39,609 nt of DNA from a virus. Positions 5,443-6,648 of the stretch are shown here, in pieces. The notes under the pieces are model-generated. The model made no database searches. It saw nothing but the letters and a program-made list of their open reading frames with translations, and was not told where the DNA came from. The translations under genes and the position numbers were made by a program. The first letter of the stretch is position 1, and the number at the start of each line of letters is the position of its first letter. The stretch spans positions 1-39,609 of the IMG/VR virus record IMGVR_UViG_3300044956_001544. One strand, 5' to 3'.

Positions 5443-5585
5443 CCGCCTCCGTCGAAGTGATCTATCGCGTCTATTGCAGCGCAAAGTTCTGCCGCTACGT
5501 CATCGCCGTCACGAATGACGAGCATGGCGCGTGCGAAGCCGCCGCTGAGCACAACGCCTCCAAGCACGCTGGGGGGAACGCATGA
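5439..5585 (+). CDS. Hypothetical early protein, 48 aa
   Basis: MTASVEVIYRVYCSAKFCRY opens with a beta-rich part containing two cysteines, followed by an alanine-rich helix (CEAAAEHNASKHA). ATGA overlaps at both ends support coupled translation. No family recognised. Confidence 0.6.
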   Translation: MTASVEVIYRVYCSAKFCRYVIAVTNDEHGACEAAAEHNASKHAGGNA

Positions 5586-6361
5586 CAACCCTCAACGTCC
5601 TCTCCCTGTTCGCCGGCATCGGCGGCATTGAGCTCGGTCTCGAGCTGGCCGGTATGACGACCGTAGGCCAGGTCGAGCTTGACACTTACTGCCAGTCCGT
5701 GCTGGCCCGACACTGGCCGGAGGTTCCCCGCCATGACGACGTTCGTACCGCCCCGAAGTGGTGGGGAAGCGAGTCTCGCCCCGACGTCCATGTCGTCTGC
5801 GGCGGCTTCCCCTGCCAGCCGTTCAGTCTCGCTGGGAAGATGCTCGGCACGGCCGACGAGCGATGGGGCTGGCCGTGGATGGCCGACGTCATTCGCGCAG
5901 TACGACCCGACTACGTGCTCGTGGAGAACGTCTCAGCTCTCGTTCGAGATGCCCGAGCTTTCGGAACCGTGCTGGCCGACCTTCACGCCCTCGGGTTCGA
6001 TGCGGAGTGGTCGACTCTACGAGCGTCCGACTTCGGCGCGCCGCACGGCCGTGAACGGCTCTACCTTCTGGCCTACCCCGCGGGCGTCGATCGGCGGGCA
6101 CGGAGTGGCATGGGTTCGAGCGGAGTCGGGGAATCACCGATCGCAGCTCGAGGACTATCTGGCCTGGATGCACCTGCGAGACGGCGGGCAGCGCAGTCCT
6201 GGCTTGAACGTGAACCCCGAGTGGTGCGACTGGCTCATGGGGTTCCCCGCCAGTCACAGCGACTCCATGCCCTCGGGAACGCTGTCGTCCCCGCCGTCGC
6301 CGAGCACATCGGTCGGCTAATCGTCGCGGATGCCACCTGGAGACAGGAGGCCGCCGCATGA
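5582..6361 (+). CDS. dcm: DNA (cytosine-5) methyltransferase
   Basis: A 259-residue C5 methyltransferase. Motif I FAGIGG (10-15) binds S-adenosylmethionine; motif IV GGFPCQPF carries catalytic Cys78; motif VI is ENV (115-117); motif VIII is GRERLYLLA (156-164); motif X is HALGNAVVPAVAEHIG (229-244). Between motifs VIII and X, where target recognition should sit, this frame gives only about 65 low-complexity residues, and the overlapping +1 frame (6063-6320) contains sequence typical of this family instead. Modification probably protects phage DNA from restriction or alters regulation. Specificity is unknown. No partner restriction enzyme is adjacent. Confidence 0.9.
   Translation: MTTLNVLSLFAGIGGIELGLELAGMTTVGQVELDTYCQSVLARHWPEVPRHDDVRTAPKWWGSESRPDVHVVCGGFPCQPFSLAGKMLGTADERWGWPWMADVIRAVRPDYVLVENVSALVRDARAFGTVLADLHALGFDAEWSTLRASDFGAPHGRERLYLLAYPAGVDRRARSGMGSSGVGESPIAARGLSGLDAPARRRAAQSWLEREPRVVRLAHGVPRQSQRLHALGNAVVPAVAEHIGRLIVADATWRQEAAA
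6063..6320 (+). other. Overlapping +1-frame segment with methyltransferase-like sequence
   Basis: Within the methyltransferase gene the +1 frame reads TFWPTPRASIGGHG (from 6063), then NHRSQLEDYL, then LNVNPEWCDWLMGFP (6204-6248), and stops at 6320. The WPTPR and LNP.W..WLMGFP blocks are characteristic of phage C5 methyltransferase C-terminal halves. The main frame resumes recognisable motif X after this. It may be a frameshifted remnant, a sequencing artefact pair, or a recoded segment. Confidence 0.7.
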
Positions 6362-6648
6362 CCGCCCACTACGCCTACGACGAGGCCGACGAGTGGCGCG
6401 CTGCTCAGTGGAGACAGCCCGAGACCGACGACCGACCCGCGCCCTATGAGTACGAGGGCGAGTCCGCCCCGCTCAAGCCGCTGTGGCCCGTGCAGGAGCG
6501 GGAGCCCGAGCAGTGGGGCAGCTTCCCGACCTGCGACGACTGCGACGAGGAAGTCCAGCACGCGTGGGATGCCCTGTGCGGCTCGTGCAAGGACGAGCGG
6601 CTGGCTGACGAGGCTCACGACCGTGGGCGACGTGGGGAGTGGGACTGA
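6358..6648 (+). CDS. Hypothetical acidic protein with zinc-knuckle
   Basis: A 96-residue acidic protein. CDDCDEEV (59-66) and CGSCKDE (74-80) form a CxxC-x11-CxxC pattern likely to bind zinc. The N-terminal half (YDEADEWRAAQWRQPETDD) is acidic and aromatic. Starts with an ATGA overlap after the methyltransferase. Function unknown. Confidence 0.7.
   Translation: MTAHYAYDEADEWRAAQWRQPETDDRPAPYEYEGESAPLKPLWPVQEREPEQWGSFPTCDDCDEEVQHAWDALCGSCKDERLADEAHDRGRRGEWD

Follow-up and report, generated by a model that had tools for sequence, protein, structure and literature searches.

Features of the locus

The window, meaning the whole 39.6 kb stretch analysed, is a temperate siphophage-like record in which integrase, terminase, portal and tape measure genes are present. 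A methyltransferase gene at 5582-6361 on the plus strand, here called alpha, lies upstream of a RecE/RecT-type exonuclease and annealing-protein pair. Alpha is 259 aa long and consists of the large domain of a C5 cytosine DNA methyltransferase (motifs I-VIII), a linker and motif X. The motifs are FAGIGG (I), GGFPCQ (IV, with PCQ), ENV (VI), GAPHGRERL (VIII) and LGNAVVP (X); these and the catalytic fold are features of the C5 cytosine DNA methyltransferase family PF00145, and motif IX is found in the second frame only. The Pfam match to PF00145 (1.6e-40) is limited to residues 5-165, and the PHROGs match to phrog_363 (9.3e-75) extends over residues 2-253. Full-length homologues of alpha have identities of at most 60% in phage records and at most 66% in IMG/VR. 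In the AlphaFold model residues 1-170 form a confident core (block means pLDDT 84-98) whose best Foldseek match is M.HhaI, residues from about 171 to 230 are disordered (block means pLDDT 35-55), and confidence is high again in the C-terminal motif X helix. The initial annotation had described the middle of this frame as rich in Arg, Ala and Gly and unlike a target-recognition region; the composition is confirmed, and the region, predicted to be disordered, is as modelled a flexible linker between the folded core and motif X. The alpha stop is overlapped through ATGA by a 96-aa ORF at 6358-6648, which carries CDDC and CGSC cysteine pairs and is without a PHROG match.

The +1 frame is free of stops from 5667 to 6320 and reads FWPTPRAS...LNVNPEWCDWLMGFPASHSDSMPSGTLSSPPSPSTSVG*. 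From the candidate ATG it encodes 195 aa, here called beta (5733-6320, plus strand), with an N-terminal segment, WPTP, a variable region and motif IX, the last reading LNVNPEWCDWLMGFP. The placement of motifs I, IV, VI, VIII and X in frame 0, and of WPTPRAS and LNVNPEWCDWLMGFP in the +1 frame up to the stop at 6320, had been given in the initial annotation, and both frames read as described there. It had also named two C-terminal endings; LGNAVVP stands as motif X in frame 0, but the SGTLSSP-like tail is not specially conserved, and beta in relatives often ends shortly after MGFP.GWT.

Four segments, all on the plus strand, are distinguished where the frames overlap and beyond. At 5888-6075 the alpha motifs VI-VIII are doubly coded with a conserved N-terminal segment of beta, SWRTSQ...SGSMRSG. 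The variable, putatively target-recognition region of beta (6076-6208) lies over the alpha linker, as does motif IX of beta at 6209-6262, where VNPEWCDWLMGFP in beta is read over EPRVVRLAHGVP in alpha. Motif X and the C-terminal helix of alpha occupy 6263-6361, and the beta tail stops within them at 6320.

Beta matches phrog_1008 (4.2e-25). Compared by profile in hhalign with single-frame phage enzymes, its NPEW..WLMGFP block aligns to motif IX (E 3e-8), and alpha to motifs I-VIII (E 2.5e-58). A PADLOC scan gave generic methyltransferase matches to alpha only and nothing for beta. Modelled alone in AlphaFold, beta has a pLDDT of 58.6 and is not confidently modelled, and a search of the PDB with its profile gave no informative match. 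A tblastn search with an 84-aa piece of the +1 frame alone found no phage match; the full 195-aa beta as query found 62 records.

Conservation of the two frames

Relatives were gathered from IMG/VR, phage records and bacterial genomes, giving 78 alpha-type genes. The motif IX block, defined as [ML]MG[FYLW]P and variants, lies in the +1 frame of 57 of the 78 by pattern, and of about 65 when degenerate forms read by eye are counted. It is in frame 0 in 10 (9 by pattern and L062) and in the +2 frame in none of the 78, and it was not seen in three genes, which are truncated or damaged. Almost all relatives repeat the +1 blocks of the window, and all 28 aligned genes have an ATG at 6000, where 10.6 would be expected to.

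Excess conservation of the +1 frame was measured by synonymous resampling with the alpha protein held fixed. Z values of 12-30 were obtained in most blocks within 5888-6082 and 6209-6262 (up to 21 over the beta N-terminal segment, about 29 over motif IX), and of about 0-7 elsewhere. The +2 frame has some excess at the same blocks, smaller than that of +1 in most, as conservation of the nucleotides themselves leads one to expect; since the constraint is partly visible in this way, stop depletion and codon periodicity allow a cleaner test. From codon 95 to motif IX the 54 distinct genes contain a single +1 stop, against 122.5 expected when synonymous codons are permuted within each gene. The control set of 143 neighbouring long ORFs has 1103 +1 stops for 1072.5 expected, a ratio of 1.03. 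When the window gene is shuffled synonymously, 0.2% of the shuffles keep LMGFP. An origin of the second frame as a by-product of GC-rich codons was ruled out by the synonymous shuffles, the synonymous resampling, the +2 frame and the 143 neighbouring genes.

Long alternative frames are common at high GC, and the +1 region stays stop-free in 11% of synonymous shuffles of the window gene, which would favour chance. The near absence of +1 stops across the family, the neighbouring genes at expectation, and the conservation of both frames in many independent records nevertheless make it extremely improbable that the second frame is due to chance, to GC-rich codons, to sequencing error or to a recent deletion scar in a single-frame enzyme. 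The proposal of a frameshift pair arising by error, or of a deletion scar, is thus refuted, both frames being conserved in dozens of independent phages. It had further been held that close homologues with the same main-frame middle would make the +1 similarity coincidental; full-length main-frame homologues do exist, but the similarity is not coincidental. Judged from the sequences, both frames carry real, conserved methyltransferase sequence.

To see which frame is free to vary, ten genes close to the window were compared, and difference rates were taken separately at codon positions 1/2/3 of frame 0. The rates are 0.23/0.22/0.48 at 5582-5887, 0.26/0.15/0.35 at 5888-6075, 0.46/0.24/0.21 at 6076-6208, a flat 0.22/0.20/0.23 at 6209-6262, and 0.34/0.26/0.50 at 6263-6361. 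The most variable position is therefore the third of alpha before 5888 and after 6262, and the third of beta in 6076-6208, where the excess of position 1 over position 3 lies between 0.13 and 0.36 (bootstrap 95% interval); it follows that the variable region evolves as beta. By these rates it is alpha that governs change at the gene start and in motif X, and both frames constrain motifs VI-VIII and IX. Three results come directly from the sequences: the motif content of the two frames, their conservation, and the passing of codon constraint to beta between motifs VIII and IX. In a second, mostly distant gene set the middle is saturated (0.58/0.56/0.63) and has no codon flip, so the flip is demonstrated for the set close to the window. 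The position of beta and this codon constraint are the grounds on which beta is taken as the putative target-recognition domain (TRD).

Proposed mode of expression of the second chain

A candidate Shine-Dalgarno sequence of beta, GGAGG, lies at 5719-5723 on the plus strand, 9 nt before the ATG at 5733. The same GGAGG, 9-nt spacing and ATG occur at the matching place in the window and in five relatives (L009, L010, L011, L014 and L018). A search ahead of the beta domain for a start codon preceded by a Shine-Dalgarno-like site found one in the +1 frame of 30 among 55 genes, where 18.4 (sd 3.2) were expected, and in the +2 control in 16 of 55 against 16.1. Internal initiation at ATG 5733 is the best-supported mode and is probably how beta is made, although the start position is not fixed at one place in all relatives.

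Translational +1 recoding at 6065-6074 had been suggested in the initial annotation. In its general form this reading has programmed +1 frameshifting from alpha to beta, there or earlier, yielding one chain as an alpha-beta fusion. It would fit with the +1 frame being open well upstream of any shift site, and with some relatives in which a clear beta start with a Shine-Dalgarno site is missing. The +1 signal proposed in that annotation is real, but it begins at about 5888 (or at the candidate start, 5733), not at 6065, and so overlaps motifs VI-VIII. A shift near 6065 is disfavoured because the constraint starts some 180 nt upstream of it, and with a shift before 5888 the fused chain would lack motifs VI-VIII. 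As motif X is in frame 0, a full enzyme would need a second shift back, and the enrichment of start codons with Shine-Dalgarno sites in +1 also argues against a fusion. We therefore regard frameshifting as very unlikely; at 6065-6074 it accounts neither for the conservation from 5888 nor for motif X. Two overlapping genes that would encode two subunits are a better reading of the sequence than a frameshift pair, a deletion scar or recoding.

Related loci

Of the 76 beta loci scanned, 71 share their DNA with an alpha that lies one frame back and carries PCQ and ENV; the remaining five did not pass a strict pattern. All 22 betas examined match phrog_1008, and alpha belongs to phrog_363; gene callers have therefore picked both frames. 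In Stenotrophomonas phage SOVA965 (L171, 1417-1917) the gene annotated as 'DNA-cytosine methyltransferase' is beta, and the catalytic chain one base back is unannotated. In Mycobacterium phage Firecracker both chains, gp6 (motifs I-VIII) and gp5 (beta segment, TRD, IX and X), are annotated as DNA methylases, with an overlap of 209 nt in the +1 frame; L185, which comes from a Pilimelia genome, resembles this staggered pair. In single-frame relatives motifs IX and X stand in the frame of alpha, and still a beta-like segment with SGSMRNG and LPTP blocks persists in +1. Stops in the +1 frame of these relatives number 7 against 18.7 expected (p 0.002), and those in +2 number 31 against 29.2. Together with the nested genes of the window, these loci give three architectures: nested, staggered and fused.

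Several loci depart from these forms. In Mycobacterium phage Llama (L007, 1501-2260) alpha is cut after motif VI (LLVRGS*) and goes on in +1, and beta shifts to +2 at the same place, so that one shared indel moves both chains. Similar two-piece matches are listed for Jinglebell, Seabastian, OfUltron, Modragons, Ochi17 and AlpineSix; an indel present in several phages is not a single sequencing error. Eight single-frame genes (L179, L181, L182, L184, L191, L054, L074 and L078) have an alpha insertion between motifs VI and VIII (DVEPCPWCLGD...), which in +1 reads ATWNPARGVWET...LCGH, in some just past a +1 stop; the ATWNPARGVWET...LCGH segment is perhaps a different beta N-terminus. Past the beta stop, the +1 frame within the long alpha frame reads HNH-like in L026 (CEHCGTPEKLSIHHIDRDWRNNDPANLQTLCTSCH) and L046 (CQSCHTAIHQ); by sequence, HNH insertions may lie hidden there, between motifs IX and X.

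The case for a broader generalisation appears to us evenly balanced. Across a large group of phage C5 methyltransferases, beta would be a doubly coded subunit that is systematically overlooked, and one maintained by selection even in loci whose catalytic chain includes IX and X in frame. The recognition region and motifs IX and X would change frame through indels in repeated LPTP-type modules, which would produce the nested, staggered and fused forms and offer a route to new specificities.

A probable two-chain methyltransferase

In C5 methyltransferases the large domain holds motifs I-VIII and part of X, and the small domain holds motif IX and the TRD (PMC5944983); the two frames of the window therefore split the enzyme at the domain boundary. 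Very likely the two overlapping genes of the locus together specify a C5 cytosine DNA methyltransferase made of two chains, of the M.EcoHK31I kind, with alpha giving the large domain and beta the small one. Alpha in frame 0 would supply the large catalytic and SAM-binding domain with motifs I-VIII and a flexible linker to motif X. Beta, begun at an internal start within alpha, would supply the DNA-reading region and motif IX. Joined together, the two chains would form a single enzyme with phage or lysogen DNA as its substrate, methylated at a specific site. Orphan phage methyltransferases are usually proposed to shield phage DNA from host restriction, and protection of this kind is the most likely purpose here.

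Beta might instead be a real protein but no enzyme subunit, for instance a mobile nuclease hidden in the methylase gene. An out-of-frame HNH endonuclease, the ShiLan insertion, has been reported in another phage methylase (PMC11855218), and the N-terminal segment of beta is without a known domain. However, no Pfam or NCBIfam family, HNH and other nuclease families included, was matched by the 22 betas. Motif IX of beta is in frame with motif X in the fused relatives, and in Firecracker and L185 it belongs to the second chain. Almost every beta that was detected overlaps an alpha, and alpha alone would be left without motif IX or any folded TRD. A separate protein is thus very improbable, and the two-chain enzyme is retained.

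Annotation generally retains a single gene where two overlap, and such a locus is usually entered as one gene. Phage methyltransferases of this group are therefore described from half of the enzyme, and cloning or the assignment of specificities would start from that half as well. Should the recognition region reside in beta, any methylated site predicted from alpha alone is necessarily wrong. The locus carries a long overlap on one strand, each frame of which would code for one structural domain of a single enzyme. It is useful for studying the origin of overlapping genes and the assembly of split methyltransferases, as used in targeted methylation tools.

Comparison with known systems

M.EcoHK31I and M.EaeI are two-polypeptide C5 methyltransferases; in the M.EcoHK31I type activity requires both chains, and the site is YGGCCR. 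A 1995 paper by Lee, Kam and Shaw reportedly described the small chain of M.EcoHK31I as encoded inside the large-chain gene in another reading frame, and in this the window agrees. In M.EcoHK31I, a bacterial enzyme, the larger chain bears motifs I-VIII and X and the smaller one motif IX, and the predicted TRD was assigned to the large chain (PMC3404938). By motif content the window is alike, its large chain having I-VIII and X but not IX and its small chain IX. It differs in being phage-borne and in that codon constraint puts the variable region in beta, not in the large chain. No restriction endonuclease was seen among the few neighbour genes examined. Given the M.EcoHK31I precedent, with its reported nesting, the architecture of the window is not new.

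M.AquI has motifs I-VIII in its large chain and IX and X in its small chain (PMC3404938). The split enzymes of Firecracker (gp6/gp5) and L185, with IX and X in the second chain, look to be of this type; unlike it, the window has a nested overlap and motif X in the large chain in frame 0, so that IX and X are not both in the small chain. In PHROGs, phrog_363 and phrog_1008 are separate families, both named 'DNA methyltransferase', and are not marked as two frames of one locus. A literature search, with most subscription papers and REBASE outside it, found no paper on the two-frame arrangement in phages or on the nested-staggered-fused series. As far as was searched, the breadth of the arrangement in phages and the nested, staggered and fused series with IX and X moving between frames appear to be undescribed. 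The ShiLan domain is a hidden HNH endonuclease in a phage methylase, a mobile insertion of sporadic distribution (PMC11855218). Beta resembles it as a second protein out of frame within a phage methylase gene and differs from it in being without an HNH match and a conserved part of the enzyme gene.
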